Shown: positions 1-50,623 of the stretch, piece after piece
Numbering within the stretch: position 1 is the stretch's first letter
Layout: every line of letters starts with the position of its first letter
Assembly: GCF_023277745.1 (NCBI RefSeq)
Contig: NZ_CP086322.1
Location: 2,108,001 to 2,172,000, forward strand
Direction: 5' to 3'
DNA: 64,000 nt
Source: Streptomyces halobius
GTDB taxonomy: Bacteria; Actinomycetota; Actinomycetes; Streptomycetales; Streptomycetaceae
Program-made: the position numbers and the translations under genes
The notes under the pieces: generated by a model
Told to the model about the DNA's origin: nothing
Seen by the model: only the letters and a program-made list of their open reading frames with translations
Database searches by the model: none

Positions 1-5
1 AACTC

Positions 6-1958
6 GTGCCGGCCGTCACCGCGCTGCGTGAGGCCGCCCCCGAGACGCGCGAGCTCGTGCTGCGCCAGCGCGCCCCACTCACGCTGCTGGGTTGCTGCTG
101 GCTCGACACCGTCTCGCAGGCCGCCACCCAGCCGTCCGTCATCGTCAACCAGCTCTTCGGCCAGCACTTCTTCCTGCAGGGCGAGGGCATTCCGCAGCGC
201 GGACAGCTGGCTCGGCGCCGTCGCGCCCTGGCCGAACTGGGCGTGCACTTGCCCGAGATCGAGGCCGCCGACTTCCTCCGACAGGCCGCGGTCCGCCCGC
301 TGACTGCCCTGCACGCTTCCTTCTACCTCGCGCTCTCCCGGCTGCCCGCCTCTTTCCTGCCGGAAGTGCTCGGCGTGCACTATGCCATGGCCGCACTGGG
401 CGTCGACGACCTGCTCTTGGGCACCGAGCCGCACCTGCCGGAGGCCGAGGCCCGCGCTGTCCTGGCCGACTACCTTGCGCTCACCGACCAGTCACCGACT
501 GGGGACGAGGACCGGCGTCGCATGCTCGCCGCCATCGCCCTCGTCCTGCGGCTAGAGCATGAGCACACCACCTTGCTCACTGAACTGGCCACCTGGTACG
601 AGGGGCTCTCCCTCGACGCCAGGGTCGCGCAGATCGTAGCCCGCCACGCGTCATTCGCCGGCCGCCAGCACCGCAGCGTCCGCATGGGCGACCGGCGGCT
701 GTCCGACTGGCTCGACGGCGAGCCTCTCGACCTGGCCGAGTTCGTCGCCGAATTCCGCGCCTCGCGGCAGATGAAGCCCGCCCGCGACGGAACCTGCCGT
801 TTCCTGAAGTCCATCAAGTTCGGCGGTCCGATGTTCGGCATCTTCGACGAACGTGAGGCGGCCACCTTCACAGCATGGGCGGAGACGATCTCAGCCGGCG
901 AACCCGCTGACCTCGACTTCGTCCCCAATACCGCCGGAGACGACCGGGCCGTTGGCTGGGCCGAGGCCCTGCGCGGAGCAGAACCTCAGGACGTCGTCAT
1001 CGCCGATGCCGAAAGCGGGCTGGAGGACCGGCAGTTGTTCCACCGCATCGTCAACGTCGAGCAGTTCGCCCACATCATGGCGGCTGCCCGGGACCGAGCC
1101 GAGGCCGGTCTCGCCGATGCGGAACTCCTCTTCACCCACGGAGCCGACGGACGGATCACCAACGCCGAGTACTTCGACTACACCCCCGAGGCGCTCATGG
1201 AGCGCGTCGAGCGCATCTACTGGGACAAGTTGGTTAACCCCTACCAACCGCTCACCGAGATCCCCGACCGCGACGAGGTTATCTTCGAGCAGACCACCTA
1301 CGCGCTCGCCAGCCTTGTCGACGGCAGCTGGGCCCACCGCATCGGCAACCTCGGCCGCAACCACCGGCAGAGCGACGCCATGCTGTTCGCTATCTACGCC
1401 GACGAAATGGGCCGCGGCGACATCACCAAGAACCACATCACGCTCATCCACCAGGTCCTCGCCAGCATGGACATCCACCTGCCGCACATCCGGCAGCCGG
1501 AATTCCGCAACCAGGGCGACCTCCCCGACCCCACCTACGGGTTCTCCATCCACCAGGTCTGCCTGTCGCTTTTCCCCGACACGCTCTACAACGAGATCCT
1601 CGGCTACAACCTGGGCATCGAGATGTTTGCCCTGGGGGAAATGCGGCTCCACGAGATACAGAAGCTGCGCCGGCACCACCTCGATGTCTCCTACGCGGAG
1701 GCGCATCTGTCGATCGATAACTTCTCCGCCGGCCACGCCCGGCAGGCGGCCGACATCATCGTCTCGTACCTCGACGACGTGCGGCGCAACTCCGGCGACG
1801 AGGCCGTCCAACGGGAATGGCGCCGCATCTGGCGCGGCTACGCCTCCTTTGCTTACTTCGTCGAGCGCCAGCTGGTCAAGCAGGTCCGCGAACAGCAGCA
1901 GGCCCCGGCCGCTCCCTCGCCCGCCGCCCCGGCCGACAGCGTTGACCTGGTCATCTGA
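6..1958 (+). CDS. Haem-oxygenase-like diiron oxidase (iron-containing redox enzyme family), 5' end possibly cut
   Basis: Likely an iron-dependent oxidase that tailors a nitrogen-containing intermediate of the cluster. The C-terminal half (about residues 430-610) shows the ligand pattern of haem-oxygenase-like diiron oxidases: E467 in a YADEMGRG stretch, H477, E539 in GIEMFALG, and an H567-x3-D571-x5-H577 helix. The N-terminal 300 residues look like a second, degenerate helical copy. At 650 aa it is about twice the usual single-domain length. The reading frame is open to the first base of the window, so the GTG at position 6 may be internal and the true start may lie upstream. The acyl-CoA dehydrogenase gene follows after 54 bp in the same direction. 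Known relatives N-oxygenate amines or cleave C-C bonds; oxidation of the hydrazone to a diazo group here is only an inference. Confidence 0.7.
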   Translation: MPAVTALREAAPETRELVLRQRAPLTLLGCCWLDTVSQAATQPSVIVNQLFGQHFFLQGEGIPQRGQLARRRRALAELGVHLPEIEAADFLRQAAVRPLTALHASFYLALSRLPASFLPEVLGVHYAMAALGVDDLLLGTEPHLPEAEARAVLADYLALTDQSPTGDEDRRRMLAAIALVLRLEHEHTTLLTELATWYEGLSLDARVAQIVARHASFAGRQHRSVRMGDRRLSDWLDGEPLDLAEFVAEFRASRQMKPARDGTCRFLKSIKFGGPMFGIFDEREAATFTAWAETISAGEPADLDFVPNTAGDDRAVGWAEALRGAEPQDVVIADAESGLEDRQLFHRIVNVEQFAHIMAAARDRAEAGLADAELLFTHGADGRITNAEYFDYTPEALMERVERIYWDKLVNPYQPLTEIPDRDEVIFEQTTYALASLVDGSWAHRIGNLGRNHRQSDAMLFAIYADEMGRGDITKNHITLIHQVLASMDIHLPHIRQPEFRNQGDLPDPTYGFSIHQVCLSLFPDTLYNEILGYNLGIEMFALGEMRLHEIQKLRRHHLDVSYAEAHLSIDNFSAGHARQAADIIVSYLDDVRRNSGDEAVQREWRRIWRGYASFAYFVERQLVKQVREQQQAPAAPSPAAPADSVDLVI

Positions 1959-2012: not shown

Positions 2013-3221
2013 TTGGAACTCACCACGAGCTTCGACCCGGAAATCCTCGGCCTCCCCTTCTACGACGACCGGCACCGTCGCCTCGCCGACGCCATAGGCA
2101 CTTGGTGCGACGGCCGCACCGCACTGTGGGACGAGGTCCGCGCGGAGGAACCGGACAAGGCCGGGCTACGCCTCGTACGGCAGCTGGGGGAGGATGGCTG
2201 GCTCGCCTTCCTGGACCCCGACTCCGAGCCCGATGCGCGACCGGGCGACTACCGCACCATCTGCCTCATGCGTGAAGCCCTCGCGTACGCCGAGGACCTG
2301 GCCGACTTCGCCTTCTCGATCCAGGCGCTGGCCGCAACTCCGCTGATCCGCTTCGGCAATGACGAACAGAAGCGCCACTACCTGCCGCACATGGCACAGG
2401 GCTCGCTCGTCGGCGCCTTCGCAGTCTCGGAGGAGCAGGCGGGCTCCGACGTAACCGCCGTCGGCCTCGCCGCCGCACGCACCGACGACGGTGGTTACGT
2501 CCTCAACGGGCACAAGGCATGGATCGCCAACGGCACCCTCGCCGATGTGTACGTCGTCATCGCCCGCACCGGCGAAGGCCCTGGCCCCCTGGGCCTGACG
2601 GCCTTCCTCGTGCCCGCCGACACCCCCGGTGTGCGGGTCCGCGACCGGCTGACCCCGGTAGCCCCCCGCTCGTTCGCCCACCTCGCCTTCGAGGAATGCC
2701 GGGTGCCACGCGAGGCTGTGCTGGGCAAGCCCGGTAAGGGCTTCGTCATCGCCATGGACCTGCTCGAACGCTTCCGAATGACCGTGGGCGCGGCGGCGCT
2801 CGGCTTCGCCCGCCGGGCCGCCGACACCGCCCTGGCACGCGCCCGCACCCGGCAGGTCGGCGGGGCCTCGCTCATCGACCAGCAACTGGCGAAGGTGTCC
2901 CTGGCCGACATGGACGTCCAGCTGAATGCGGCCGCCCTACTGGTGGCCCGCGCCGCCTGGGAGGCCGATCGCGGCAGCCCCGGCTTCGCCCGCCACTCCA
3001 ACATCGCCAAGCTCCACGCCACCGAGGAGGCCCAGCGCATCGTCGATACCGCCGTCCAGCTGCTCGGTGCCTCGGGCGTCGTCAAGGACAGCGTCACCGA
3101 GCGCCTGTACCGGCAGATCCGCTCCCTGCGCATTTACGAGGGCACCTCTGAAGTCATGCGGCTGACCATCGCGGGAACCCTCGACATGCGGCGTGCGGAC
3201 CGTGCCGCCCGGGCCCTTTGA
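2013..3221 (+). CDS. Acyl-CoA dehydrogenase-like flavoprotein
   Basis: A 402-residue FAD enzyme of the acyl-CoA dehydrogenase family with the normal length and domain order: N-terminal helical domain, middle beta domain (about 120-230) and C-terminal helical bundle. The family catalytic base sits in RIYEGTSEV near the C terminus, at about E376. The start is TTG at 2013, with GGAGAAG just upstream. In a pathway where the acyl group is carried on a protein, such enzymes often oxidise an acyl-carrier thioester rather than a CoA ester. The obvious candidate reaction is two-electron oxidation of carrier-bound hydrazinoacetyl to hydrazonoacetyl, but this is inference from context. It sits between the diiron oxidase and P450 genes with short gaps, so it is probably co-transcribed with them. 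Confidence 0.8.
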   Translation: MELTTSFDPEILGLPFYDDRHRRLADAIGTWCDGRTALWDEVRAEEPDKAGLRLVRQLGEDGWLAFLDPDSEPDARPGDYRTICLMREALAYAEDLADFAFSIQALAATPLIRFGNDEQKRHYLPHMAQGSLVGAFAVSEEQAGSDVTAVGLAAARTDDGGYVLNGHKAWIANGTLADVYVVIARTGEGPGPLGLTAFLVPADTPGVRVRDRLTPVAPRSFAHLAFEECRVPREAVLGKPGKGFVIAMDLLERFRMTVGAAALGFARRAADTALARARTRQVGGASLIDQQLAKVSLADMDVQLNAAALLVARAAWEADRGSPGFARHSNIAKLHATEEAQRIVDTAVQLLGASGVVKDSVTERLYRQIRSLRIYEGTSEVMRLTIAGTLDMRRADRAARAL

Positions 3222-3260: not shown

Positions 3261-4394
3261 GTGACCACCCCGATCGAAGCGGTCCGGCTGCCAGACCCGT
3301 ACGGCTACTACGCGACTCTGGTGACTGAGCGTCCCCTGGCGTTCGACGAGGCCGTGGGCGCCTGGGTGGCGTGCGACGCGGCGGCGGTACGAGCCGCGCT
3401 GGCCTCCGGTGCCCTGAGGGTGCGCCCAGCCGTTGAGCCGGTGCCCGCCGGAATAGCCGGGACCCCCGCCGGTGACGTCTTCGGCGACCTGGTGCGGATG
3501 ACCGACGGCGAACTCCAGCGCCGCCTGAAGGCCGTGGTCGTCGACGCGCTGGGGTACGTCGATCCAGCGCGCGTCGCCGGCCTGGCGGCAAAGCGGACCC
3601 GCGACGTCCTCGCGGCAGGCAGTCGACCGCCCTTCGAGGAGCTGATGTCCGGCGTGCCCGTCAGGGTGGTGGCGGCCCTGTGCGGCCTGGACCAGGGGGC
3701 GGACGCCGAAGCCACCCGGTTCATCGGCGACTTCGTGCAGTGCATCCCGGCCTCCGCCACTCCCGAGCAGCAGAAGACCGCGGCGCTCGCGGCCGGCCGG
3801 TTACAGGAGCTACTGGGGCCCGGCATCGAGCAGGGGGAGGGCGGCACGGGTCTGCTCGCCGACCTCGTACGGGCCGCGCACCGTGCCTCCTGGTCCCGTA
3901 CCGCGCCGCTGCTGGCCAACGCGGTCGGCTTCCTGTCCCAGACCTACGACGCAACGGCCGGCTTGATCGGCAACACCCTGGTGGCGCTGGCCCGCGGTGC
4001 GCAGGTGCCCGCCGACCCCGCCGATGCCGAGACGTTCGTCCGCGAGGTCGTACGCCACGACGCGCCGATCCAGAACACCCGCCGCTTCGCCGCCGAGCCG
4101 TTCCGCCACGGCGAGGCCGAGATCGCGCCGGGCGAACACGTGCTGGTGGTCCTCGCAGCCGCCAACCGCGACCCGGCCGCCAACCCCGATCCGCACGCCT
4201 TCCGGCCCGGCCGCATGGACCCCGCAGTCTTCACCTTCAGCGCCGCGGCCCACCGCTGTCCGGGGGAGACCCTGGCCGTCACCATGGCTGTTGCGGTCGT
4301 CCGCGAGCTGCTCGCGGCAGGGTTCGACCCGGCGGAGCTCCCGACCGAGGTGACCTACCGGCCGCTGGCCAACGCCCGCATCCCGGTGCTCTAG
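3261..4394 (+). CDS. Cytochrome P450
   Basis: A 377-residue P450, slightly short for the bacterial family (about 400). The haem-binding loop reads FSAAAHRCPG with the cysteine ligand at about C333, so the usual FGxGxHxCxG glycines are partly replaced by alanine. The ExxR motif is E262-V-V-R265. The I-helix oxygen-binding region is SQTYDATAG, lacking the glycine of the common AGxDT motif; the D-A-T triplet remains. The start is GTG at 3261 with AAGGAG upstream. No ferredoxin or reductase gene is visible in the window, so it must use general partners. It is part of the 6-6709 run of closely spaced genes; its substrate cannot be told from sequence. It could oxidise the nitrogen moiety or a late intermediate. 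Confidence 0.85.
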   Translation: MTTPIEAVRLPDPYGYYATLVTERPLAFDEAVGAWVACDAAAVRAALASGALRVRPAVEPVPAGIAGTPAGDVFGDLVRMTDGELQRRLKAVVVDALGYVDPARVAGLAAKRTRDVLAAGSRPPFEELMSGVPVRVVAALCGLDQGADAEATRFIGDFVQCIPASATPEQQKTAALAAGRLQELLGPGIEQGEGGTGLLADLVRAAHRASWSRTAPLLANAVGFLSQTYDATAGLIGNTLVALARGAQVPADPADAETFVREVVRHDAPIQNTRRFAAEPFRHGEAEIAPGEHVLVVLAAANRDPAANPDPHAFRPGRMDPAVFTFSAAAHRCPGETLAVTMAVAVVRELLAAGFDPAELPTEVTYRPLANARIPVL

Positions 4395-4449: not shown

Positions 4450-5514
4450 ATGTCGGACATGCCACGCCTGTGGATGCGACACGAGTCCCGTACCAGTGAG
4501 CGCAGGGCACCGCTCGTCCCCGAGGACGCCGCGCGGCTCGTCGCGCACGGCGTTGAGATCACCGTCGAGGAGTCGCCGCAGCGCGCCTTCCCGCTCACGG
4601 ACTACGTCGCAGCCGGCTGCCGCACTGCGCCGGCCGGCAGCTGGACCGATGCCCCACGGGACCACTACATCCTGGGCTTGAAGGAACTGCCCGACGAACC
4701 CGCTTGCCTGATCCACCGTCATATCTACTTCGGCCACGCTTACAAAGGCCAGGCCGGCGCCCGGGAGCTGCTTGGCCGGTTCACGGCCGGTGGCGGAACA
4801 CTGCTGGACCTGGAATACCTGACGGACAACGACGGCCGGCGCGTGGCCGCGTTCGGCTACTGGGCCGGCTACGTCGGCGCGGCTCTGGCCGTGCTCCACC
4901 ACCGTGGCCTGCTCCGGGCCCCGCTGCGCCCCCTCGACCGGGCCGCACTGGACGCCCAGCTCTCCGACAAAGGATCCCCGGCGGACGAGAGAGCCCTGGT
5001 GATCGGTGCGCTTGGCCGCAGCGGCCGCGGCGCGTGCGACGCCCTGGAGGCGGCCGGCATCACCCCCACCCGCTGGGACGTGGCGGAGACCCGCGCGCTG
5101 GACCGGACGGCGCTGCTTGGCCACGACATCCTCGTGAGCACCGTGCTCACCACACGGGCCGTAGCACCCTTCCTCACCGCCGCGGACCTCGACGACCCCA
5201 AGCGCCGCTTGTCCCTCATCGCGGACGTCACCTGCGACGTCACCTCCGAGTGCAACGTCCTGCCGGTCTACGACGAGATCACCGACTGGGAGCACCCGGT
5301 CCGGCGGCTACGCGAGGGTGACCGGCCCGCCGACATCATCGCCATCGACAATCTGCCCTCGCTGCTGCCCATCGAGTCCAGCCGCGCCTTCTCGGCCGAG
5401 CTGCACCCCCAACAGTTGCGCCTGAGCGACACCGACCCAGTCTGGGCGCGCGCGCTGCTCGCCTTCGAGACCGCGGTCGCCACCAACCACGAAGGAAGCA
5501 CCTATGCCCATTAG
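4450..5514 (+). CDS. Saccharopine dehydrogenase, lysine-forming (LYS1-type) homologue
   Basis: A 354-residue homologue of NAD-dependent saccharopine dehydrogenase (L-lysine forming), which splits saccharopine to lysine and 2-oxoglutarate. The N-terminal alanine-dehydrogenase/PNT-like domain carries the family landmarks GLKELP (catalytic lysine) and RHIYFGHAYKGQ (catalytic histidine). A Rossmann segment lies around residues 175-250. Length is close to the fungal enzyme (about 370). Lysine in actinobacteria is made by the diaminopimelate route, so this enzyme is not needed for primary synthesis. It overlaps by 11 bp the gene for the complementary saccharopine reductase. In this cluster the pair could regenerate lysine from the aminoadipate-semialdehyde released by hydrazine cleavage (inference). 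An unrelated dehydrogenase role is the alternative. Confidence 0.75.
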   Translation: MSDMPRLWMRHESRTSERRAPLVPEDAARLVAHGVEITVEESPQRAFPLTDYVAAGCRTAPAGSWTDAPRDHYILGLKELPDEPACLIHRHIYFGHAYKGQAGARELLGRFTAGGGTLLDLEYLTDNDGRRVAAFGYWAGYVGAALAVLHHRGLLRAPLRPLDRAALDAQLSDKGSPADERALVIGALGRSGRGACDALEAAGITPTRWDVAETRALDRTALLGHDILVSTVLTTRAVAPFLTAADLDDPKRRLSLIADVTCDVTSECNVLPVYDEITDWEHPVRRLREGDRPADIIAIDNLPSLLPIESSRAFSAELHPQQLRLSDTDPVWARALLAFETAVATNHEGSTYAH

Positions 5515-6709
5515 CCGGAACACAAGCGAAGGGGTCGCACCGGTCCCCGCAAGCGGCACCGTCCACTGGATCGGCACCGGCCTGTCCACTGGCCCGTCTG
5601 GCCTCGGCCTGCTGTGCGACCGGGCCGAGCGCGTGGTGCTGTGGGACCGCACCGCCGAGCGCGCCGCCGAACGCCTGGCCGCCCTCGGCCTGGCCGGCCG
5701 TGCCGAGGTCCGCACGCTCGCGGATGACGCCCTTCAGGACACGGTCCGCGCCGGCGATGTGGTCGTCTCTATGCTGCCCGCCGCCGAACACCCCCGCCTG
5801 CTGTGCCTGGCCGTCGACCGCCGGGCCCACTTCGCCTGCACCAGCTATGTCTCCGACGCCATCGCCGAGCAGGCCGCGGTCGCAGCCGAGGCGGGCGTCG
5901 TGGTACTTACCGAGGCCGGACTCGACCCGGGCATCGACCACCTGATGGCACACCGGCTCATAGAACGCGCCCGCGTGGCGGTCGGCGACACGGCCGAGTC
6001 GGTCGACTTCACCTCCTACTGCGGCGGCATACCCGCCGTTCCCAACGACTTCCGCTACCGCTTCAGCTGGGCGCCCTACGGCGTTCTGGCAGCCCTCGGC
6101 TCCCCAGCCCGCCACATCGACGAGGGCCGGGAGCGCACCGTCGTCCGCCCCTGGGAGGCCACCCGCATCCACCGCCTCGGCGGCGAGGATTTCGAGGTCT
6201 ACCCCAACCGCGACAGCATGCCGTTCGTGGCCCACTACGGCATCCCGGACGGCTGGCAGCTGCGAACCTTCGTCCGCGGCACCCTGCGCAACGCGGGCTG
6301 GCGGCAGGCATGGAGCGATGTCTTCTCCACCGTGACCACTGGCGAGCAGGAGCGGATCCGTTCCCTGGCCAAGGACCTAGCCGCCCGCTATCCCACTACC
6401 GACGCCGACCGCGACCGCGTGGTGCTCTCCGTCGGGCTCGACGTCCGCGCCGCCGGTGGCGAGCGCTGGCAGGGTGCCTACCTGCTGGACCTCACCGGCG
6501 ACGAGACCGAGAGCGCCATGGCCCGCCTCGTGTCCCTGCCGCTCGCCCTCGGTATCACGCGGATGCTGGCCGGCGCGTTGCCTGCTGGCCTGAACCGCGC
6601 CGCGGAGTCCGCCGACGAGGCCGCCCGCTGGATGGAGTTCCTGGACAAGGCCGGGCTGCGCAGCACCTTCGCCGACAGCGTCCCCGCCCCCCACAGAGAG
6701 AAGGCATAA
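5504..6709 (+). CDS. Saccharopine reductase, glutamate-forming (LYS9-type) homologue
   Basis: A 401-residue saccharopine dehydrogenase of the NADP, L-glutamate-forming type, which condenses 2-aminoadipate 6-semialdehyde with glutamate. Visible family marks are an N-terminal Rossmann fold beginning at the VHWIGTGLS strand, the EAGLDPGIDHL motif, the FTSYCGGIPAV segment, the RFSWAPYGVL stretch, and a C-terminal substrate domain with YPNRDSMPF and RGTLRNAGW. Start ATG 5504 overlaps the end of the LYS1-type gene, with GAAGGAAG upstream, so the two are translationally coupled. Together they contain both half-reactions needed to convert aminoadipate semialdehyde to saccharopine and then to lysine. 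A 408-bp gap follows before the hydrazine operon. Confidence 0.75.
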   Translation: MPISRNTSEGVAPVPASGTVHWIGTGLSTGPSGLGLLCDRAERVVLWDRTAERAAERLAALGLAGRAEVRTLADDALQDTVRAGDVVVSMLPAAEHPRLLCLAVDRRAHFACTSYVSDAIAEQAAVAAEAGVVVLTEAGLDPGIDHLMAHRLIERARVAVGDTAESVDFTSYCGGIPAVPNDFRYRFSWAPYGVLAALGSPARHIDEGRERTVVRPWEATRIHRLGGEDFEVYPNRDSMPFVAHYGIPDGWQLRTFVRGTLRNAGWRQAWSDVFSTVTTGEQERIRSLAKDLAARYPTTDADRDRVVLSVGLDVRAAGGERWQGAYLLDLTGDETESAMARLVSLPLALGITRMLAGALPAGLNRAAESADEAARWMEFLDKAGLRSTFADSVPAPHREKA

Positions 6710-7117
6710 CCACGATCCCACGCCTCGGAGCCTCCGTTCTCACCCCCTGTTGACGTTCGGCCCCGGGAGCGCGGTCGACCCGCTGGCCGGCAGCCGGCTC
6801 TTCCTGCACCTGGGCGGCGGCCCGGTCCGGCCGTCGTGGCTGTCGGGTCCTTCCTCGCCGCAGTCTGCGGCCTGGCCGCTGTACGCAGGCCCAGGCCACC
6901 GCAGCCGCCCGGCGGACCTCCGTCCAGGCCAGGGCGCCGACCGCCGGATCACCGGCCTGCCCCTTACGACACCCCGCACCGCCGGCCACCTCATCCCACA
7001 CGTCCACGCAAACAGGCATGCCTTTTCGCCGATCGATCCATCACTGTTCCGCACCCTCTATCCGGTACGTCCCGAGCCGGCGCGCCGCCGGCACCCGTCC
7101 GAAGGAGAGATCCGACC
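6710..7117. other. Non-coding gap, likely promoter region of the hydrazine operon
   Basis: No convincing gene in 408 bp. Open frames exist on both strands but lack recognisable protein features, and the one in frame with the next gene only reflects high GC. A TTGACG hexamer lies at about 6753. A strong ribosome-binding site, GAAGGAGAG, ends about 9 bp before ATG 7118. A promoter for the 7118-18578 operon is expected here; no operator repeat was seen. Confidence 0.4.
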
Positions 7118-8437
7118 ATGGGGCACGAGAAAGCCACGCCTGACTCCGCGCACTACCGCTGCGTGGGAGTCGGCGTGGGACCTGCCAACCTGAGCCTGGC
7201 GTCACTGCTGCACAGCCGACCGGAAGTGCGCAACCTCTTCATCGACCGCAAGGAGTCCTTCGGCTGGCACGACAGCCAGCAGATCCCCGGCACGACCCTC
7301 CAAGTCTCCATGTTCAAGGACTTGGTCTCGCTCTCCGACCCCAAGTCCCCGTTCTCCTTCCTGGCCTATCTGCACGACCAGGGGCGGGTGTACCACTTCC
7401 TTAACGCCCAGTTCGACGACGTGCCGCGCCTGGAGTTCCGCAACTACTTGGCCTGGGCAAGTCGACGTAACGAGAACATAGTTTTCGGCGAGGTGGTCGA
7501 AGAGGTCGGCTTCGACGGCGTCTTCACCGTCCGCACCGACCGTCGCACCGTCACCGCCGACAATATTGTTGTCGGCGTGGGCAACCAGCCCTGGGTGCCG
7601 GTGCAGGGCCGCAGGCACCTCGGCGCCACCCAGTTCCACGTCAACGACTTCATGACCTCGGCCCGGAACCTGGGCGGCAAGCGGGTCGTGGTGGTCGGCG
7701 GCGGCCAGTCCGGCGCCGAGGCATTCTCGGACCTGATCTCCCGCTCCGGCGCCGAACTGCCGCGGCGCGTGTCATGGATATCGCGGCGCCGCAACTACTT
7801 CCCCATCGACGACTCGCCGTTCACCAACGACTACTTCATGCCGGACCACTCCGACTACTTCTACAGCCTGGGAGCCGAGGCCCGCGCCGCGTTCAACGCT
7901 CAGCACATCCTCACCAGTGACGGCATCTCCGAGTCCACGCTGCGCGACGTCTACCAGCGCATCTACGTCCACCGCTTCGTGGAGGGCAACCCCGACCTGG
8001 TCGGGCTGCACCCCAACCGCGAGGTCGTCGGCGTCGAGGCCGGCGCGGCAGGCGACTGGGGCATCACCGTCCGGCACAACGACAAGCCCGACGCCCTGGA
8101 GCACTTCGAGGCGGACGTCGTCGTGTGGGCCACCGGCTTCAGGCCCGCTGCCATGGACTTCCTTGCCCCGATCGCCCACCGCCTGGAGCGCCACGGCGAC
8201 GAACTGCGCATCGACGAGGACTACGCGGTGTGCTGGGACGGCCCGGCCGATCGCAGCATCTTCGTGCAGAACGCCGCTCGCGGACAGCGCGGTCTCGCCG
8301 ACCCCAACCTCAGCCTCAACGCCTGGCGCAGCCAGCGCATCGCCGACCGGTTGTGCGGCGTGCGCAGTGACGAGCAACTGGCGTCCTTCATCGAATGGTC
8401 GACCAAGACCGGCACCAACGTCCCGTGGGGGGCATGA
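7118..8437 (+). CDS. L-lysine N6-hydroxylase (IucD/SidA-type flavin monooxygenase)
   Basis: A 439-residue flavin-dependent N-hydroxylating monooxygenase of the lysine/ornithine family, expected to make N6-hydroxylysine from lysine with FAD and NADPH. The FAD motif GVGVGPANL is at about residues 18-26, the NADPH motif VVGGGQSGAE at about 192-201, and the late ATGFRP motif near residue 345. A longer upstream frame exists, but ATG 7118 has a perfect GAAGGAG site and gives the family N terminus, so it is chosen. It is the first gene of a tightly coupled operon: its TGA overlaps the ATG of the FAD oxidase gene. In hydrazine pathways this family supplies the hydroxylamine partner for N-N bond formation, which fits the next two genes. 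A siderophore role is unlikely because no siderophore synthetase is nearby. Confidence 0.88.
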   Translation: MGHEKATPDSAHYRCVGVGVGPANLSLASLLHSRPEVRNLFIDRKESFGWHDSQQIPGTTLQVSMFKDLVSLSDPKSPFSFLAYLHDQGRVYHFLNAQFDDVPRLEFRNYLAWASRRNENIVFGEVVEEVGFDGVFTVRTDRRTVTADNIVVGVGNQPWVPVQGRRHLGATQFHVNDFMTSARNLGGKRVVVVGGGQSGAEAFSDLISRSGAELPRRVSWISRRRNYFPIDDSPFTNDYFMPDHSDYFYSLGAEARAAFNAQHILTSDGISESTLRDVYQRIYVHRFVEGNPDLVGLHPNREVVGVEAGAAGDWGITVRHNDKPDALEHFEADVVVWATGFRPAAMDFLAPIAHRLERHGDELRIDEDYAVCWDGPADRSIFVQNAARGQRGLADPNLSLNAWRSQRIADRLCGVRSDEQLASFIEWSTKTGTNVPWGA

Positions 8438-9543
8438 TGACGACGCGGCGCACCGACTACGCGGTGATCGGCGCTGGAGTGCTCGGCTGCCTGATCGCCC
8501 GGGAGATTCTCACTCGCGACCCGCACGCCTCCGTGGCCCTGTTGGAGCGGGACGCCGTCGCCAGCGGCGCCACCCGTCGCTCGGCCGGCCTGCACTTCCC
8601 GCGCGGTTCCTCTCCACGCGTGCGCCGCATGGCCTCGCACAGCCAGCAGTGGTACGCGGCCCTCAAGGCCGCCCGCCCCGAACTGCCCGTGCACAGCCTG
8701 CGGATGACCGTCGTCGCCCCCACCGCGGAGGAAGCACAGCTGCGCCGCACCTACCTGCCCGAGGCGAAGCTACGGCCCGCAACCGAACTGCCCGCGACCA
8801 TCGGCCCGCTACCCGCGGGCATGAGCGCCTGGGAGGGCGACGGCTGCCAGTACGCGGACGTCCACGCCCTCACCCAGGTCCTGGCCCGCGAACTGCGCCC
8901 GACCGCCGAGTTCCGCGAAGGAGTCCAGGTCACCGGCGTGACCCCCACCGCGGACGGGGTGCACCTGGACCTTGGCACCGGCGATGCCCTCACCGCCGGG
9001 CACGTGGTTCTCGCCCCCGGCCCGTGGCTCGCGGCCCCGGCCTGGAAGGACCTCGTCGCCCCGCTCGGTGCCCGGGTGAAGAAGGTCGTGGCCCTGCACA
9101 TCGAAATACCGCCGGCTGCCGACGAGCGGGCCATCATCTTCCAGGACGAGGACGCCTTCCTTCTGCCCTATCACGAGCGCGGCCACTGGCTGTTCAGCTA
9201 CACCTGCCAGGAGTGGGACGTCGACCCCGACACCGTCCCCGCGAGCCTGTCGCCCACCGGCCGTGGCGAGGCCCTCGCCACCCTGCGTCAGTACGCCCCC
9301 CACCTGGTCAAGCACTGCACCTCCGGGCGCGTCTTCTGTGACGCGTACGGGCCCGACGCCGAGCCGCTGGTCCGCGCACTTACGGAGGACGGGCGCGTGG
9401 TCTTCGCAGGCGCCGCCAATGGCTCCGGCTACCGGCTCGCCCCGGCCATCACGGCCGAAGCCGCCGACCTGCTCCCGCTCCCGCCCGAGCGAAACCTTCC
9501 GTCCCAGCGAACCCTCCCGTCCCAGCGAAAGGACGCGGCGTGA
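8434..9543 (+). CDS. FAD-dependent glycine/D-amino-acid-oxidase-like enzyme
   Basis: A 369-residue DAO-fold flavoprotein with an N-terminal dinucleotide-binding motif (YAVIGAGVLGCLIA, about residues 8-21) followed by SGATRRSAG, the flavin-contact segment of this family. The start ATG 8434 overlaps the stop of the lysine hydroxylase gene (ATGA). In characterised hydrazine clusters a homologue oxidises the carbon next to the N-N unit of N6-(carboxymethylamino)lysine, releasing hydrazinoacetic acid and aminoadipate semialdehyde. That role is assigned here from family and position, not shown by sequence. Its gene also overlaps the hydrazine synthetase gene by 4 bp, so the three enzymes should be made in fixed ratio. 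Confidence 0.82.
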   Translation: MMTTRRTDYAVIGAGVLGCLIAREILTRDPHASVALLERDAVASGATRRSAGLHFPRGSSPRVRRMASHSQQWYAALKAARPELPVHSLRMTVVAPTAEEAQLRRTYLPEAKLRPATELPATIGPLPAGMSAWEGDGCQYADVHALTQVLARELRPTAEFREGVQVTGVTPTADGVHLDLGTGDALTAGHVVLAPGPWLAAPAWKDLVAPLGARVKKVVALHIEIPPAADERAIIFQDEDAFLLPYHERGHWLFSYTCQEWDVDPDTVPASLSPTGRGEALATLRQYAPHLVKHCTSGRVFCDAYGPDAEPLVRALTEDGRVVFAGAANGSGYRLAPAITAEAADLLPLPPERNLPSQRTLPSQRKDAA

Positions 9544-11819
9544 TCATCAACACGTACGACGACAACGCCCTCTCCGAGGCGTTCGGCATCGACATGAGCA
9601 GCATCGAGGGCCTTGGCACGGGCGCCGGCTGGGGACGCGTCGCCCCCGGCCGGGCCTCCGACAGCCATCAGCACGACGAGACCGAGGTCTTCGTGATCGT
9701 GGCCGGCCGCGGCGAGTTCATCGTCGACGGGCAGCGCCACCCGGCGGCCCCCGGCACCGTGGCGCTCTTCGAGCCCTTCGAGTCCCACGTCCTGGAGAAC
9801 ACCGGCGATCAGGACCTCGTCTTCCTCACCCAGTACTGGCGTGACGCCTCACGGGCCCTGGTCTCCGCGCAGAACACCGAGCGCAAGAACTTCGGCGAGC
9901 GGCCGGTCTTTGTCTTCTCCACCCCGCCTACCCCCAACGGCGATCTGCACCTGGGTCATCTCTCCGGGCCGTACCTCGGCGCCGATGTCTTCGTCCGCCA
10001 CCAGCGGATGAACGGCACCAACGCCTGGCACCTGACCGGCAGCGACGACTACCAGAGCTATGTGCCCGCCGCCGCCCGCGCCGAGGGTCGCGAATCCGCC
10101 GAGACCGCGGCCCACTACAGCGCCGAGATCGCCGCGACGCTCGCGCTGATGGACATCACCCCTGACCAATACACCGTCACCAACAACGACCCCGCCTACC
10201 GCGGCGGCCTGCAGGACTTCTTCTCCCGTGTCGTCTCCTCCGGCACCGTCAAGGTCACCGAGGCCGCCGCGCTCTTCGACGCGGAGAGCGGCCAGTACCT
10301 CTACGAGGTCGACGTCAAGGGCGGCTGCCCTGGCTGCAGTTCGGGCACCAGCGGCAACATCTGCGAGGAGTGCGGCGAGCCCAACACCGTCACAGATCTC
10401 GCCGAGCCCGTCTCCACCCGCTCGGCCACGGCCCCGCGCCGCGCCCGAGTGGCCCGCTGGACGCTGCCCCTGCACACCTTCCGCGACGACATTGCCGCCC
10501 ACCACCAGCTCGGCCGAGTGCCGGCGCGGCTGCGAGAGCTCGCCGACCGGCTCTTCAGCCGCCCGAGCCTGGACATCCCGATCACTCACCCCTCTTCCTG
10601 GGGCGTCCCCCCGGCCGAGAAGGACGTGGACGGCCAGGTCATCTGGGTGTGGCCGGAGATGTCGTACGGCTTCCTGCACGGCATCCAGACCCTCGGCGCC
10701 CGGCTGGGCGAGAAATGGAAGGCAGCCGAGCCCGGCCAGGACTGGAAGATCGTCCATTTCTTTGGCTACGACAACAGCTTCTACCACTCAGTGCTCTACC
10801 CGGCCCTGTACCGGCTGGCGTTCCCAGGATGGGCACCCGACATTGACTACCACGTCAACGAGTTCTACCTGCTGGAAGGCAGCAAGTTCTCCACCAGCCG
10901 GCGCCACGCCATCTGGGGCAAGGAGATCCTCGGCCCCGACTCCGTCGACGCCGTCCGCTACTTCCTCGCCGCCACCCGCCCTGAGGGGACACGTACCAAC
11001 TTCCAGCGGGCGGCTTATGAATCGGCCCTGACCGACACCCTCATCGGCACCTGGCAGACTTGGCTCAACGACCTCGGCTCCCGGATCGCCAAGCGCTACG
11101 GCGGCACGGCCCCGGACGCCGGCAACTGGACACCCGAACACTCCGCCTTCCTCGGGCGGCTTGGCTCCCGCTTGGCCGCGGTCACCGGCGCCCTGGGCTC
11201 CGACGGCTTCTCCCTCAACCAGGCTGCCGTCGAACTCGACGGTATTGTCAACGACACCCTGCGCTTCTCCCGTCAGGAGGCGCTCCTCGCCGAGACCGCC
11301 GGTTGGGAGAACGAGGCCCGCACCGCCATCACCCTGGAACTGGCCGCGGCCCGCCTCCTCGCCCACTCCGCCGCCCCCATCATGCCGCGCTTCGCCGCGC
11401 GCCTGGCCGAGACGCTCGGCATGCCCGAGCCGTCTACCTGGCCGCGCACCGTCGAACTCGTCGCCCCTGGCAGCGAGATCCACCTCGCGGACGCTGTCTT
11501 CTTCCTGCCGATGCAGCTCCCAGTGGCGCCCAGCCCTGCACCCGTCGGCCCGCAGCTCGTGCCGTGGCTGAGCACCCTCGTACGGACCCTGCTCCAGCTC
11601 CCCGAGGACGAGGTGGTCTGCGACCGCAGCCTCAGCCAGCTGAACACCAGCTCCCTGCAGGCCGTCACCCTCCAGTACCAGATTCTCGAAGCCCTCGACG
11701 TGGACGTCAGCGTTGAGGAACTCCTCGGCAGCCAGGACATCAACGCCCTCGCCACGATCATCGATGAACGCGCCGAGCCCGCAGCCCTGGCCGCGCTCGC
11801 CGAGGCGGACGCCCGATGA
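9540..11819 (+). CDS. Hydrazine synthetase: cupin + MetRS-like + C-terminal carrier-like domain
   Basis: A 759-residue three-domain protein. Residues about 1-110 are a cupin with putative metal ligands H43, H45, E49 and H83. Residues about 120-660 are a class I methionyl-tRNA-synthetase-like domain with a signature HLGH at 137-140, a four-cysteine zinc knuckle (C263, C266, C275, C278) and a KMSKS-like KFSTS at 449-453. In the known cupin/MetRS family the synthetase part activates an amino acid, usually glycine, to esterify N6-hydroxylysine, and the cupin forms the N-N bond. Residues about 675-750 look like a carrier protein: helices are in place, and LNTSSLQ replaces the usual LxxDSL, leaving S705 as candidate phosphopantetheine site. 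The start overlaps the upstream stop; the stop overlaps the NRPS start. The carrier domain may present the hydrazonoacetyl group to the NRPS. Confidence 0.85.
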   Translation: MIINTYDDNALSEAFGIDMSSIEGLGTGAGWGRVAPGRASDSHQHDETEVFVIVAGRGEFIVDGQRHPAAPGTVALFEPFESHVLENTGDQDLVFLTQYWRDASRALVSAQNTERKNFGERPVFVFSTPPTPNGDLHLGHLSGPYLGADVFVRHQRMNGTNAWHLTGSDDYQSYVPAAARAEGRESAETAAHYSAEIAATLALMDITPDQYTVTNNDPAYRGGLQDFFSRVVSSGTVKVTEAAALFDAESGQYLYEVDVKGGCPGCSSGTSGNICEECGEPNTVTDLAEPVSTRSATAPRRARVARWTLPLHTFRDDIAAHHQLGRVPARLRELADRLFSRPSLDIPITHPSSWGVPPAEKDVDGQVIWVWPEMSYGFLHGIQTLGARLGEKWKAAEPGQDWKIVHFFGYDNSFYHSVLYPALYRLAFPGWAPDIDYHVNEFYLLEGSKFSTSRRHAIWGKEILGPDSVDAVRYFLAATRPEGTRTNFQRAAYESALTDTLIGTWQTWLNDLGSRIAKRYGGTAPDAGNWTPEHSAFLGRLGSRLAAVTGALGSDGFSLNQAAVELDGIVNDTLRFSRQEALLAETAGWENEARTAITLELAAARLLAHSAAPIMPRFAARLAETLGMPEPSTWPRTVELVAPGSEIHLADAVFFLPMQLPVAPSPAPVGPQLVPWLSTLVRTLLQLPEDEVVCDRSLSQLNTSSLQAVTLQYQILEALDVDVSVEELLGSQDINALATIIDERAEPAALAALAEADAR

Positions 11820-14800
11820 GCTACCGCGACGTATTGCGCGAGATAGAAAGCCGCGGCCTGTCCGTCTCCCTCTCCGGCAACGACCTGCGGCTCCAGGGCG
11901 GCCGCGAGCGCATGGACCCGCAGTTCATCGCCCGCATCAAGAGCGTGAAGGAGGAGCTGATCGCCCACCTCGCCGAGGAGGAGCGACACGGTCCGGGCTT
12001 CCCGCTCACCACGCTTCAGCGCGCCTATCTGCTCGGGCGCAGCGGCATCTTCGAGATCGGCGACGTGGCCAGCCACGTCTATCACGAGATCGAGGGCGTG
12101 TGGGATGTCGACCGCCTGGAGTCCGCGCTGGAAGCGGTTGTGGACGCGCACAGCGCGCTGCGCTCCCGCTTCGTCGGCGACGACCGCCAGATCACCGAGT
12201 TCCGTCAGTATCGGCCCCGCATCCCCTGCCTGGACTTGCGTGGAGAGAGCCCCGAGGAACAACGCCGCATCCGCCGCGAACTGCGCGAGCAACGCTCCCA
12301 CCGGGTGCTCGCCGCCGACCAGGTGCCGCTGATCGCCGTAGAAGTGACCATCCTCGCCGATGACCGCATGGTGCTCCACGTCAGCCACGACGGGCTGGTC
12401 ATGGACGGCATCAGCATGTTCCTGTTCTTCCACGCCTGGTGGCAGTGCTACCGCGACGGCATCGACGAGGGCGCGCCCCAAGAGCTGCCGTATGCGGAGT
12501 ATGTCGCGGCGCTGGAAGTCGGTCGAGACCGGGCCCCCGCCCGCCGCTCGCGCGAGTACTGGCTCGCACGGATCGACGAACTCGCGCCGCATCCGGACCT
12601 GCCGCTGCGCACCAGCCCGTCCGCGCTGACCACTACCCGCTTCTCCCAGCGCGAGGTGCGCGTGGGCGAGCAGGAGTGGACCACGCTCAAGGAGCGGGCC
12701 GCCTATGCAGGGCTCACCCCCTCGGCGCTGCTGCTCGCCGCCTACGCCGAGACACTGGCAACCTGGGGCGCCGACTCACGGTTCACCATCAACACCACGG
12801 TCGCCAACCGCCCGCCCATCCACCCTCGCGTCTTCCAGGCCATCGGCAATTTCTCCGACACCATGCTCGTCGAGGCCGAGGTCGACCGGACCCGCACTTT
12901 CGAGGAGCGGGCCCGTGCCTTGCAGGCTCGGCTGCGGCGCGACCTCGACCACCGGCACTTCTCCGGCGGTGACGTCATGCAAGAACTGGCTCGCCGCCGC
13001 GGCGGCGTGGCCGGCGCCCGGATGCCGTTCACGTTCAACAGCGCGATCGGTCATATGGGCGGAGAGGTCGACGGCTCCGCGCTGGAACTGTTCGGGCCGG
13101 AGGTGTACACCGTCAGCCAGACCCCCCAGGTGTGGCTCAACGCCTTCGCGATGGAGCAGCACGGCGGGCTCGTCGTCCAGCTGGACGGCATCGACGAGCT
13201 GTTCCCCGAGGGGATGCTCGACGATCTCGCCCACGGATACCGCACACTCCTCGACACGCTCGGCGACGAGGCCGCCTGGCAGCGCACCACGTTCGACCTG
13301 TTGCCCGAGGCCCAGCGCGAGCGGCGCCGCGAGGCCAATGACACCGCCGTGCCCCTGCCCGAGACCATGCTCGGCGACGCGTTCACCGCTCAGGCCGAGC
13401 GCGTCCCGGACGCGCCCGCCATCATCACCTCCGGACGGCAGATCAGCTACGGTGAACTGCTACGCCGTGCCGCCGCAGCGGCATGCTGGCTGCGTGCGGG
13501 GAATGTCGGCCGCAACGAGCTGGTCGGTCTGGTGATGAGCCGTGGCCCCGAGCAGATCGTCGCCATCCTCGCCACTGTGCTGGCCGGTGCCGCCTATCTG
13601 CCCGTCGACGCAGCACTGCCCGCCGAACGGCAGAACTACATGCTGCGCGACGGCCGGGTGCGCCGTGTGCTCACCAATACCGGATGGCAGGACACCAGCG
13701 GCGAACGACAGGTGCTGCACCTGGACGTCGCCGGGGCCGCCGACGGGACGCCGGACCTTCCGGCCCTGCTGCCCGGTTCCCATCCCGACGACCTCGCCTA
13801 TGTGCTCTACACCTCCGGCACCACGGGTGAGCCCAAGGGCGTCATGGTCAGTCACCGCAACGTCGCCAACGTCGTAGCCGACTGCCAGCGGCGGTTCGGC
13901 ATCACGCCCGCGGACCGGTACTTCGCCATCAGCGCGTTCAACTTCGACCTGTCGGTGTGGGACGTCTTCGGCGCGCTGTCGGCCGGGGCGGCCCTGGTGA
14001 TGCCCGACCGGGACCGGGCCGTCGACCCCGCCCACTGGCTGGAGCTCTGTGAGAGCGCCGGGGTGACCGTGTGGAACTCGGTGCCCGCCATCGTCTCCCT
14101 CCTGCACGACCAGGCCGTCGCCGACGGCACCGTGCCGCCCGCACTGCGCCTGGTGATGATGAGCGGCGACCGCATCCCGCCGGCCCTGCCCTCCGCGCTG
14201 CGCCAGATGAAGCCCACCGTGGATGTCGTCTCGCTCGGCGGGCCGACCGAGACGACGATCTGGAACATCCTGCACCCCGTCGGCCCCGATGAGGACGGCA
14301 GCGAGTCCATCCCATACGGTCGTCCGAACGCCAATAACCGCGCCTATGTGCTCGACCGGGATGGACTGGACTGTCCCGACTGGGTGACCGGCGAGATCTG
14401 CGCGGCGGGTACCGGCCTGGCCCGCGGCTACTGGGGCGACGAGGCGCGCACCGCCGAGCGGTTCTTCCACGACGGCCGTCGTGGGGAACGCCTGTACCGC
14501 ACCGGTGATCTGGGTCGCTATCTACCCGACGGCAACATCGCGATTCTCGGCCGCAGCGACTTCCAGATTAAGGTCAACGGCTACCGCATCGAGGCCGGCG
14601 AGGTCGAGACGCGGCTGGTCGCCATCGACACCGTGGCCAAGGCCGTCGTCGCCGGTCGCCCCGGTGCCCAGGGCGACCGCCTGGTGGCCCACCTGGTGCC
14701 GGTCGGCGAGCAGCGGCCCAGCGTGGCCGAATTGCGCGACGCCCTACGCCGCGACCTGCCCGACTACATGATCCCCACAGCCGTGATCTGGCACGACGAA

Positions 14801-15139
14801 CTACCGCTGACCAAGAACGGCAAGGTCGACCGGGGTAGGCTCGCCGACGTCCCGGTCAAGGAAACGGCGCCCGCCGCCGACGCCCCGGTCAGCGGCGGCG
14901 AACCCGAGACGGACACCGAGAAGGCCCTCGTCGAGATCTGGTCGCAGGTGCTGCGCGGCACACAGGTCGGCGTCCACGACAGCCTGGGCGCCCTCGGCGG
15001 CGACTCCATTGCCGCGGCCCGCATCCTCACCGCCGTCCGCAAGCGGTTCGGCGTTGCCATCCCGCTCGACATGTTCGCCGAAATGGACACCATCCGGGCC
15101 ATGGCCATTGCCCTTACCACCCGAGAGGAGGCTCAGTGA
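11816..15139 (+). CDS. NRPS module: docking - Cy - A - PCP
   Basis: A 1107-residue single-module peptide synthetase. Residues 1-55 resemble a TubC-type docking domain. Residues about 60-490 are a condensation domain of the heterocyclisation type: the motif is D192xxxxD197xxS200 instead of HHxxxDG. The adenylation domain (about 510-1000) has YTSGTTGEPKG, FNFDLSVWDVFG, GGPTET, YRTGDLGR and the late lysine in LTKNGKVDRG. The pocket residues read by eye as D-L-W-N-M-S-L-I-W-K, near the cysteine code of Cy modules. The PCP (about 1020-1095) has GGDSI. No thioesterase or epimerase follows. Cy domains can form thiazolines or, as reported for azaserine, a simple ester with serine; which applies here depends on whether the A domain takes Cys or Ser. 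Confidence 0.9.
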   Translation: MSYRDVLREIESRGLSVSLSGNDLRLQGGRERMDPQFIARIKSVKEELIAHLAEEERHGPGFPLTTLQRAYLLGRSGIFEIGDVASHVYHEIEGVWDVDRLESALEAVVDAHSALRSRFVGDDRQITEFRQYRPRIPCLDLRGESPEEQRRIRRELREQRSHRVLAADQVPLIAVEVTILADDRMVLHVSHDGLVMDGISMFLFFHAWWQCYRDGIDEGAPQELPYAEYVAALEVGRDRAPARRSREYWLARIDELAPHPDLPLRTSPSALTTTRFSQREVRVGEQEWTTLKERAAYAGLTPSALLLAAYAETLATWGADSRFTINTTVANRPPIHPRVFQAIGNFSDTMLVEAEVDRTRTFEERARALQARLRRDLDHRHFSGGDVMQELARRRGGVAGARMPFTFNSAIGHMGGEVDGSALELFGPEVYTVSQTPQVWLNAFAMEQHGGLVVQLDGIDELFPEGMLDDLAHGYRTLLDTLGDEAAWQRTTFDLLPEAQRERRREANDTAVPLPETMLGDAFTAQAERVPDAPAIITSGRQISYGELLRRAAAAACWLRAGNVGRNELVGLVMSRGPEQIVAILATVLAGAAYLPVDAALPAERQNYMLRDGRVRRVLTNTGWQDTSGERQVLHLDVAGAADGTPDLPALLPGSHPDDLAYVLYTSGTTGEPKGVMVSHRNVANVVADCQRRFGITPADRYFAISAFNFDLSVWDVFGALSAGAALVMPDRDRAVDPAHWLELCESAGVTVWNSVPAIVSLLHDQAVADGTVPPALRLVMMSGDRIPPALPSALRQMKPTVDVVSLGGPTETTIWNILHPVGPDEDGSESIPYGRPNANNRAYVLDRDGLDCPDWVTGEICAAGTGLARGYWGDEARTAERFFHDGRRGERLYRTGDLGRYLPDGNIAILGRSDFQIKVNGYRIEAGEVETRLVAIDTVAKAVVAGRPGAQGDRLVAHLVPVGEQRPSVAELRDALRRDLPDYMIPTAVIWHDELPLTKNGKVDRGRLADVPVKETAPAADAPVSGGEPETDTEKALVEIWSQVLRGTQVGVHDSLGALGGDSIAAARILTAVRKRFGVAIPLDMFAEMDTIRAMAIALTTREEAQ

Positions 15140-16665
15140 CCGACCATTCGACGATCAATCACATCGTCTCCATCGCACCGATCGCCGGACGCATCTCCTT
15201 CGCCCGGCTCGACGGTACGCAGAGCATCGGCCTGCCGGAGCTGTACGAGATGGCCGGCCGCCTGGCACGGCGGCTGCGGGAACGCGGTATCGGACCGGGT
15301 GACCGGATCGGCATCCTGGCCGCCAACAGCCTGGAGTGGGTGCTGCTCGACCTTGCCGCACTGCGACTGAAGGCCGAAACCGCGGGCTTTGAACCCGGCA
15401 AGTTCGACCCCGACGACCAGCTCACCACGTGCTACCACGTCAAGCTGCTGTTCACCGATCGGCCTACGAACGCCCCCGGGACCGTGCCGATCGGCGAGGT
15501 CCGTGCCCTCGCCGAGGGGCCGGACGGCGCGGACGCCGAGCCGCTGCCCCCTGTCACCTGGGCGCCGCGCGACGTGACGACCATCAAGTTCACCTCGGGC
15601 AGCACCGGTACCCCCAAGGGCCTGGGCGCGACCGTCGGCAGCATCGACAGCTCGCTGGCCGCGGTGCAGGAGATCTTCGAACACAAGCCCGGGGATGACC
15701 TGTTCGTCTTCCTGCCGCTGTCGCTGCTCCAGCAGCGCTACTGGATCTACTCCGCGCTCGCCCACGGCCACGACGTCACCATCAGCACCTATGAGGCGGC
15801 ATTCGCGGCGCTGCGCCGCGTCGAGCCCACCGTCGTCATGGGCGTACCCGCCTTCTACGAGACGGCCAAGCGGCAGATCGAGGCACGGTTGCGCCGCGCG
15901 GACGGCACGGAGACCCTCCAGCAGGTCGCCCGCCGGATGTTCGGCGACCGCATCCGCTACCTATGGACCGGATCCGCCCCCGCCGCTTCGGCGATGCTGC
16001 GCTTCTTTACCGAGGCCGGGCTGCCCATCTACGAGGGCTACGGGCTCAACGAGACCTGCATCGTCACCAAGAACCACCCCGGTGCCAGCCGCGAGGGCAG
16101 CGTCGGCAAGGTTCTGCGCGGCAAGAAGGTGCTGCTGGACGAGGACGGCGTCATCAGCGTCCACAGCGACCACCCCGTCGGGTACGGCTACGCATACGCC
16201 GCCCCAGGCGACTCCGAGCGGGTCTTCGGCCGCGATGGCTCCGTACGCACCGGCGACCTTGGGTACGTCGATGAGGACGGTTTCCTCTTCATCCGGGGCC
16301 GGGCCGACGATGTCATCGTCCTGGACAACGGCAAGAAGGTTGTCATCCGGCCGATCGAGGAGAGCATGCGCAGCAGCCCGGCCGTCGCTGAGTGCGTCCT
16401 GTTCTGCCCCACGCAGACCGACCTGGTGGCCGTCGTCTCCCCGGCCACGGTGCCCGCCGACCGGGATGGCATCGCTGCCCAACTCTCCCTGACCAACGCA
16501 TCGTTGGCCAAGGATGAACGGATCAGCAGGGTCGTCGTAGCCGAGACCCCGTTCAGCATCGAAGGCGGCCTGCTCACCTCCCAGTACAAGCCCAAGCGCA
16601 AGCAGATCCTCGACGCCTACCGGGCCGAGATCCACGACAGTAAGGAAGGTATCCATGCGGCCTGA
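15136..16665 (+). CDS. AMP-dependent acyl ligase (carrier-protein loading)
   Basis: A 509-residue member of the acyl-CoA synthetase/AMP-ligase superfamily. The P-loop-like core FTSGSTGTPKGL is at about 152-163, the EGYGLNETC motif at about 299-307, RTGDLGYVDEDG at about 371, and a C-terminal lysine-rich tail segment QYKPKRKQI at about 484 carries the catalytic lysine. The N-terminal part is shorter than in fatty-acyl ligases. Its GTG start overlaps the NRPS stop and its own end overlaps the start of a free carrier protein gene, so it very probably loads that carrier. Hydrazinoacetic acid is the logical substrate in this operon (inference). Confidence 0.82.
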   Translation: MTDHSTINHIVSIAPIAGRISFARLDGTQSIGLPELYEMAGRLARRLRERGIGPGDRIGILAANSLEWVLLDLAALRLKAETAGFEPGKFDPDDQLTTCYHVKLLFTDRPTNAPGTVPIGEVRALAEGPDGADAEPLPPVTWAPRDVTTIKFTSGSTGTPKGLGATVGSIDSSLAAVQEIFEHKPGDDLFVFLPLSLLQQRYWIYSALAHGHDVTISTYEAAFAALRRVEPTVVMGVPAFYETAKRQIEARLRRADGTETLQQVARRMFGDRIRYLWTGSAPAASAMLRFFTEAGLPIYEGYGLNETCIVTKNHPGASREGSVGKVLRGKKVLLDEDGVISVHSDHPVGYGYAYAAPGDSERVFGRDGSVRTGDLGYVDEDGFLFIRGRADDVIVLDNGKKVVIRPIEESMRSSPAVAECVLFCPTQTDLVAVVSPATVPADRDGIAAQLSLTNASLAKDERISRVVVAETPFSIEGGLLTSQYKPKRKQILDAYRAEIHDSKEGIHAA

Positions 16666-16918: not shown

Positions 16919-16920
16919 CC

Positions 16921-18578: not shown

Positions 18579-18690
18579 CACCAACGGCCGGTGGGCTTTT
18601 GGAGCGCACCGGCGCTTTGAGGCTTTCGGGGTCCGGGGCAGATCGCCGGGCAGCGGTGGAAAGTTCGGCTTGAAGAAAGGGATCTGTCAC

Positions 18691-50606: not shown

Positions 50607-50623
50607 GCCCAAGGAGCCTGCTC

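Follow-up and report, generated by a model that had tools for sequence, protein, structure and literature searches.

A saccharopine dehydrogenase pair in an azaserine-type gene cluster of Streptomyces halobius may recycle lysine as a nitrogen carrier

What two saccharopine dehydrogenases contribute to a hydrazine-forming gene cluster is the question raised by a 64,000-nucleotide stretch of the Streptomyces halobius genome (contig NZ_CP086322.1, positions 2,108,001 to 2,172,000; hereafter the window), where the genes azsH (4450..5514, + strand) and azsI (5504..6709, +) stand side by side. Bacteria of this kind are expected to make their lysine by the diaminopimelate pathway. The two genes belong to a cluster of azaserine type. 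The preliminary description of this locus, which suggested that the pair may recycle lysine as a nitrogen carrier, recognised a real pair correctly and is most likely right in outline about the cycle.

The product of azsH (354 amino acids) is a LYS1-type saccharopine dehydrogenase of the NAD, L-lysine-forming type; its residues 7-341 align with yeast Lys1 (PDB 3ugk) at an E-value of 6.1e-68, and it shows both the full-length similarity and the fold of Lys1. The product of azsI (401 amino acids) is a LYS9-type saccharopine dehydrogenase/reductase, residues 18-269 of which match the Magnaporthe saccharopine reductase (PDB 1e5l; E 1.4e-38), with Pfam hits to Sacchrp_dh_C (PF16653; 130.1 bits against a cut-off of 31) and Sacchrp_dh_NADP (PF03435; 41.2 bits against 25.1). 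These matches, together with a reading of the sequence, bear out the earlier statement that one enzyme of each type is encoded by genes overlapping by 11 bp: the azsI ATG lies at 5504 and the azsH stop codon at 5512-5514, placing the first 11 bp of azsI within azsH, and a GAAGGA motif inside the end of azsH (5491..5496, +) is the likely ribosome-binding site of azsI. An annotated pair of this type from Streptomyces lavendulae pSA3239 has the identical overlap. Two other assignments were tried and rejected. The first made AzsI a polyamine-type (carboxyspermidine) dehydrogenase; among its five solved relatives by sequence, four are saccharopine enzymes and one is an uncharacterised protein, and none is named a carboxyspermidine dehydrogenase. 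The second, a role in housekeeping lysine biosynthesis, was set against copy numbers in the 9.24-Mb genome, where the window copy is the sole match to AzsI at E ≤ 0.01 and the sole match to AzsH at E ≤ 1e-30.

The cycle that such enzymes would close begins with AzsL and AzsN, which would join lysine and glycine into a Lys-Gly hydrazine that AzsM would then cleave to hydrazinoacetate and L-2-aminoadipate 6-semialdehyde (AASA). AzsI would combine AASA with glutamate and convert the resulting imine to saccharopine, NADPH being the probable reductant. Oxidation of saccharopine by AzsH, for which NAD+ is the probable acceptor, would then give back lysine along with 2-oxoglutarate. By our own bookkeeping, one turn would consume glycine, glutamate, two O2, ATP, two NADPH and NAD+, and would yield hydrazinoacetate, 2-oxoglutarate, H2O2, AMP, pyrophosphate, two NADP+ and NADH, with lysine merely turned over. 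The chemistry of the L, N and M steps has been shown elsewhere for homologues, and would apply here by analogy; the AzsM homologue Spb39 is described as yielding AASA and hydrazinoacetate (PMC13274452), while AASA and glutamate are given as the substrates of the LYS9 reaction and lysine as a product of the LYS1 reaction (PMC6264447, PMC9854754). Set side by side, these reactions close the cycle. It is likely, in our judgement, that AzsI and AzsH salvage the lysine skeleton from the AASA released by AzsM, with glutamate as the net nitrogen donor. We are also inclined to regard lysine as a catalytic amine carrier, its epsilon nitrogen being spent for each hydrazinoacetate and refilled from glutamate by way of saccharopine, in which case glycine and glutamate would be the true donors of the azaserine N-N unit.

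Whereas the enzyme types, the residues described below, the synteny and the joint presence or absence of the two genes are established here, the direction in which AzsI and AzsH work is predicted from homology, as are their substrates and cofactors. In residue alignments of 33 AzsH proteins (the window and 32 cluster loci), the yeast Lys1 positions Arg18, Lys77, His96, Glu122, Arg131, Asp227 and Asp319 are kept throughout; we take Lys77 and His96 to be the catalytic pair and Arg18, Glu122, Arg131 and Asp319 to be substrate residues. The same catalytic pair and these four substrate positions are kept in all 23 AzsH homologues from outside hydrazine clusters. LYS1-type activity on saccharopine with NAD+ is predicted for AzsH. 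Of the residues that bear on NADPH use by AzsI, Arg34, presumably a cofactor residue in LYS9, is invariant among 34 proteins from hydrazine clusters and Thr35 is kept in 31, but an Asp precedes the two in the window protein. Equivalents of Asp126, Arg224 and Arg243, residues named in the LYS9 passages of PMC6264447, are likewise present in all 34.

The strongest sequence support comes from the way that azsH and azsI travel together, as would be expected if saccharopine passes from one enzyme to the other. We scanned a genome collection by alignment with AzsN, the hydrazine synthetase of the cluster, and surveyed the best 80 of 348 relatives. On a quick AzsN tree, built without bootstrap, the pair is scattered, requiring at least 10 changes (6 of them forced by starred branches), and azsH and azsI appear and vanish together. 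The cluster of strain CT34 (L097) has neither gene, yet it shares a starred set with five pair-bearing rows, one of them the window; its P450 and N-hydroxylase genes lie ~310 bp apart, and the simple reading is that both genes were lost in one step. Across the 33 clusters with both genes (window included), the correlation between AzsH and AzsI distances is 0.92; removing the AzsN distance lowers it to 0.72, a value reached in none of 2000 permutations. Five homologues from other contexts are interspersed among the cluster members in the AzsH tree, indicating that the azsH genes of these clusters are not a closed group.

Counting the pair in the surveyed loci required searches beyond the immediate neighbourhood of azsN. 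Within 10 kb of AzsN, both genes were found in 25 of the 80 loci and neither in 55. A whole-genome AzsI search was then applied to 50 of these 55 loci (L155, L157, L160, L171 and L173 being left out) less L163, that is, to 49 loci in 48 genomes, and returned a match in 11 genomes. In five cases the match proved to be a pair on the same stretch of contig, just past the 10-kb limit. In a sixth, L145, the pair lies with azsE and the genes that follow it, up to azsI, at the end of a different contig, which we infer belongs to the same cluster. As for the remaining five genomes, the pair of G295 and G298 belongs to a different hydrazine cluster, with a second copy present in G298; G323 and G340 carry a pair away from azs genes, and G356 has one on another contig, at the same coordinates as L081, a locus reached as G197 that lies in the non-hydrazine context described below. 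The final tally puts the pair in 31 of 80 clusters, always as both genes. The Streptomyces lavendulae pair with the 11-bp overlap mentioned above is part of an azs-type cluster carried by a linear plasmid (NZ_CP024986.1, 105811-124950), the one record examined of seven returned by a plasmid search with AzsI. Sinorhizobium meliloti plasmids (e.g. NC_010865.1, 112820-114070) carry AzsL homologues of 54% identity and possibly represent more hydrazine clusters.

Several results weigh against a recycling role. Neither gene was found in 49 of the 80 clusters within the stretches read, a figure that is an upper limit on absence, since the sequence breaks off near AzsN in 8 of the 55, and one of these, L145, proved pair-bearing. 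An AzsM-like oxidase is nevertheless present in 50 of the 55 loci lacking the pair within 10 kb, and no LYS9-type match (E ≤ 1e-30) was obtained in 37 of the 48 genomes, which were searched with AzsI and not with AzsH as query. The pair was seen in none of the 11 Pseudomonadota loci, some of which are cut near AzsN. According to PMC10445470, moreover, disruption of tri23/tri24 left triacsin production unchanged. The absence of a LYS9-type match from most genomes searched, together with this disruption result, makes the pair an optional accessory of the pathway. The co-occurrence of the two genes, which the preliminary description named as a point to check, holds wherever the pair was counted (31 of 31 pair-bearing clusters, in agreement with the tree), but it is qualified by the 49 clusters that show no pair and by one locus (L037), met when 293 genomes of the order were surveyed, in which a hydrazine cluster has AzsI (13497-14663, -) without AzsH. 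That locus is the second hydrazine cluster of a genome (G218) that also holds a full pair; pre-ATP-grasp and DUF4246 proteins are encoded near its AzsI.

Nor is use of the pair specific to hydrazine formation, as it is common outside such clusters. Across the 293 genomes, AzsI matches occur in 62 and AzsH matches in 68 (E ≤ 1e-30); a strong match to AzsN (≥ ~970 bits) accompanies the AzsI match in 7 of the 62. In a sample of 20 loci with the pair or AzsH alone, chosen by hand, 15 (L076-L088, L094 and L095; for example L083) place the LYS1/LYS9-type genes in a conserved non-hydrazine cluster of varying gene content, with creatininase (15), LPG-synthase-TM (15), beta-lactamase family (14) and glycosyltransferase (12) genes as shared neighbours, joined by GTP cyclohydrolase II (9), PTPS (7) and a ThiO-like oxidase (6). 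L094 and L095 have AzsH without AzsI. This different shared neighbourhood indicates that the pair has a separate use elsewhere. AzsH homologues standing alone were also seen near an AfsA-like gene (L089 and L090) and near genes for a xanthine/uracil-type permease and an 8-oxoguanine-deaminase-like protein (L091-L093).

The remaining objections lie in the active sites. In AzsH, Lys99 is kept in only 31 of 33 proteins and Glu78 in only 29. In AzsI, the position of LYS9 Tyr78, which is described as touching the glutamate carboxylate (PMC6264447), is Ala in 32 of 34 proteins, the window included, and Val or Thr in one each, and in place of Phe80 there is Glu (28 proteins) or His (6). The preliminary description had held that loss of saccharopine-binding residues would speak against its proposal; such loss is mostly not seen, but the Tyr78 contact is gone. 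Ala also occupies this position in all 15 scorable AzsI homologues from outside hydrazine clusters, and is therefore not special to the azs cluster. Because the contact is absent, we place AzsI at the level of the family: it is LYS9-type and is said to act like LYS9, rather than being a strict fungal-type saccharopine reductase, and with this substitution the amino donor might be another one than glutamate. The loss of Tyr78 and the dispensability of the genes are the weakest points of the proposal, in which the enzyme activities are predicted ones.

Other explanations of the pair were considered. Disposal of AASA and its cyclic form, both of which could react with hydrazinoacetate to give hydrazones, might itself be the selected function, lysine then being a mere convenient sink reached by the same two reactions. 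A module that is dispensable and is found with differing downstream parts (an azsO-type nonribosomal peptide synthetase, NRPS, accompanies 17 of the 25 pairs lying within 10 kb of AzsN, not the other 8) would suit that purpose. A single aldehyde dehydrogenase would suffice for it, however; none turned up in a scan of 10 shared families out of the 15 that are not azs genes, and pair-less clusters exist without such an enzyme, making disposal an unlikely primary function. These 15 are part of a list of 26 families, each found in at least 5 of the 80 loci. A replacement AASA enzyme in pair-less clusters was sought in the same 10 families and rejected, as they include neither an aldehyde dehydrogenase nor a class III aminotransferase. 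A short-chain dehydrogenase family occurs in five pair-less loci (L097, 19563-20363, +, and four others) and in no pair-bearing one. No lysine 6-aminotransferase exceeded the family cut-off in the S. halobius genome, a search for which the 14 control genomes, also only below the cut-off, provide no positive control.

Alternatively, AzsI or AzsH could cleave the hydrazine itself or use another N-alkyl-lysine, a notion that draws on PyrL of pyrazomycin biosynthesis, a putative saccharopine dehydrogenase suggested in the relevant passage of PMC8664883 to convert a Lys-Glu hydrazine to 2-hydrazinoglutarate, and that would sit comfortably with an AzsI lacking Tyr78 and with the locus having AzsI but no AzsH. 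Yet an AzsM-like oxidase is already present in 25 of 25 loci with the pair within 10 kb, AzsH accompanies AzsI in every one of the 31 pair-bearing clusters although cleavage of the hydrazine would not call for AzsH, and a search around the more distant AzsN homologues L046-L072 with profiles of AzsI and AzsH gave no match, a comparison made without the PyrL sequence; we regard direct cleavage as improbable. The two reactions might also run catabolically, from lysine through saccharopine to AASA as in lysine breakdown, both being reversible according to PMC9854754. Such a direction would drain the lysine required by AzsL and enlarge an AASA pool already fed by AzsM, and AzsH is closer to lysine-forming Lys1 than to the catabolic LOR domain, which leaves this option with very little to recommend it. 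Lysine salvage from AASA remains our preferred reading.

The surrounding genes provide the enzymes that salvage would presuppose, as the N-hydroxylase, FAD oxidase and cupin-MetRS-carrier protein required by the proposed chemistry adjoin the pair. All lie on the + strand. Upstream are azsE (3..1958, its start upstream of the window), a haem-oxygenase-like redox enzyme (Pfam Haem_oxygenas_2), azsF (2013..3221), of acyl-CoA dehydrogenase type, and the cytochrome P450 gene azsG (3261..4394). Downstream, azsL (7118..8437, start picked by eye) encodes an L-lysine N6-hydroxylase (Pfam Lys_Orn_oxgnase, E 6.5e-92), azsM (8395..9543; Pfam DAO, 68% to the S. fragilis locus L101) an FAD oxidase of the Spb39/Tri27 type with AASA and hydrazinoacetate as its expected products, and azsN (9540..11819; Pfam Cupin_2, tRNA-synt_1g and PP-binding) the cupin-MetRS-carrier protein hydrazine synthetase. 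There follow azsO (11816..15139), an NRPS with condensation-family, A and carrier domains; azsP (15136..16665), an AMP-dependent synthetase; azsQ (16655..16918), a stand-alone carrier protein of 87 amino acids with a GLTSLNK serine site, named from position and motif only; azsS (16804..17535, true start probably ~16921), a GNAT acyltransferase; azsT (17469..18578), a C45-type (AAT) peptidase; and azsU (18670..19356), a phosphopantetheinyl transferase. The 18 kb upstream of the window encode, ahead of azsE, a thioesterase, then a PEP-mutase/isocitrate-lyase family protein, then KAS III.

Taken with these 18 kb, the window has the gene order of the azs table in PMC10445470 and all of the genes listed there as minimal for azaserine (L, M, N, S, T, F, Q, O, B, G and E) in azs order, azsQ and azsB being assigned from open reading frame, position or Pfam domain only; the cluster looks set to be of azaserine type, with azaserine as its predicted product. 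A search of the window and of the 18 kb ahead of it revealed neither azsJ nor the bulk of azsK; all that appears, directly downstream of azsI, is a probable remnant from near the azsK end (6723..6883, +; major facilitator superfamily, MFS, ~58 residues in two frames, tblastn with the L096 MFS gene, E 7.9e-8), so the cluster may rely on another exporter. Beyond the cluster, genes for an integrase-core protein (20065-21057, -), a TraG/TraC-like ATPase (43170-45023, -) and a DNA methylase (49913-51550, +) suggest an adjoining mobile element.

If the cycle runs, an epsilon label of lysine would be diluted from glutamate in pair-bearing strains, and isotope work that reads lysine as the hydrazine nitrogen source would accordingly need re-reading; the two-gene module could also spare lysine for hydrazinoacetate pathways run in other hosts. 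Part of the proposal is already in print: in PMC10445470, AzsH and AzsI are called saccharopine dehydrogenases that probably supply lysine to raise yield, and both are absent from its list of genes thought minimal for azaserine. The genes were thus known and a role in supplying lysine had been suggested for them, and the closed lysine cycle is a sharper form of that published proposal. The terms semialdehyde, aminoadip-, recycl- and regenerat- do not occur in the main text of that paper, and no statement of the closed cycle was found in the literature passages searched, a set outside which the triacsin papers fall, so that it may well be in print. The recycling claim of the preliminary description accordingly keeps its footing in the enzyme types and their joint presence, while its direction and substrates come from homology and its supply of lysine had been anticipated.

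The nearest known system is the azs cluster of Streptomyces fragilis, in which, by the account in PMC10445470, AzsH and AzsI have the same order and families as in the window. The corresponding locus (L101, contig NZ_BEVZ01000003.1) matches 11 of 12 query genes at 68-78% identity in best segments, with azsE outside the stretch or unmatched; AzsH and AzsI of the window are 71% and 72% identical to their counterparts in best segments. One difference is that azsJ and the greater part of azsK are missing from the window. Where that paper describes both proteins as cleaving saccharopine to lysine, we find two consecutive enzyme types. Tri23 and Tri24 of the triacsin pathway are homologues of S. fragilis AzsH and AzsI (57% and 68% in its table). 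Fungal LYS1 and LYS9, the last two steps of alpha-aminoadipate lysine biosynthesis, are the same two enzyme types, with active-site residues conserved, but here AASA would come from hydrazine cleavage rather than from aminoadipate, and LYS9 Tyr78 is lost. Fosfazinomycin and kinamycin biosynthesis (PMC6133997) resembles the proposed cycle in using an amino acid as a carrier in N-N chemistry, and differs in its compounds and its intermediate, the hydrazine being carried there, according to the title of that work, by glutamate.
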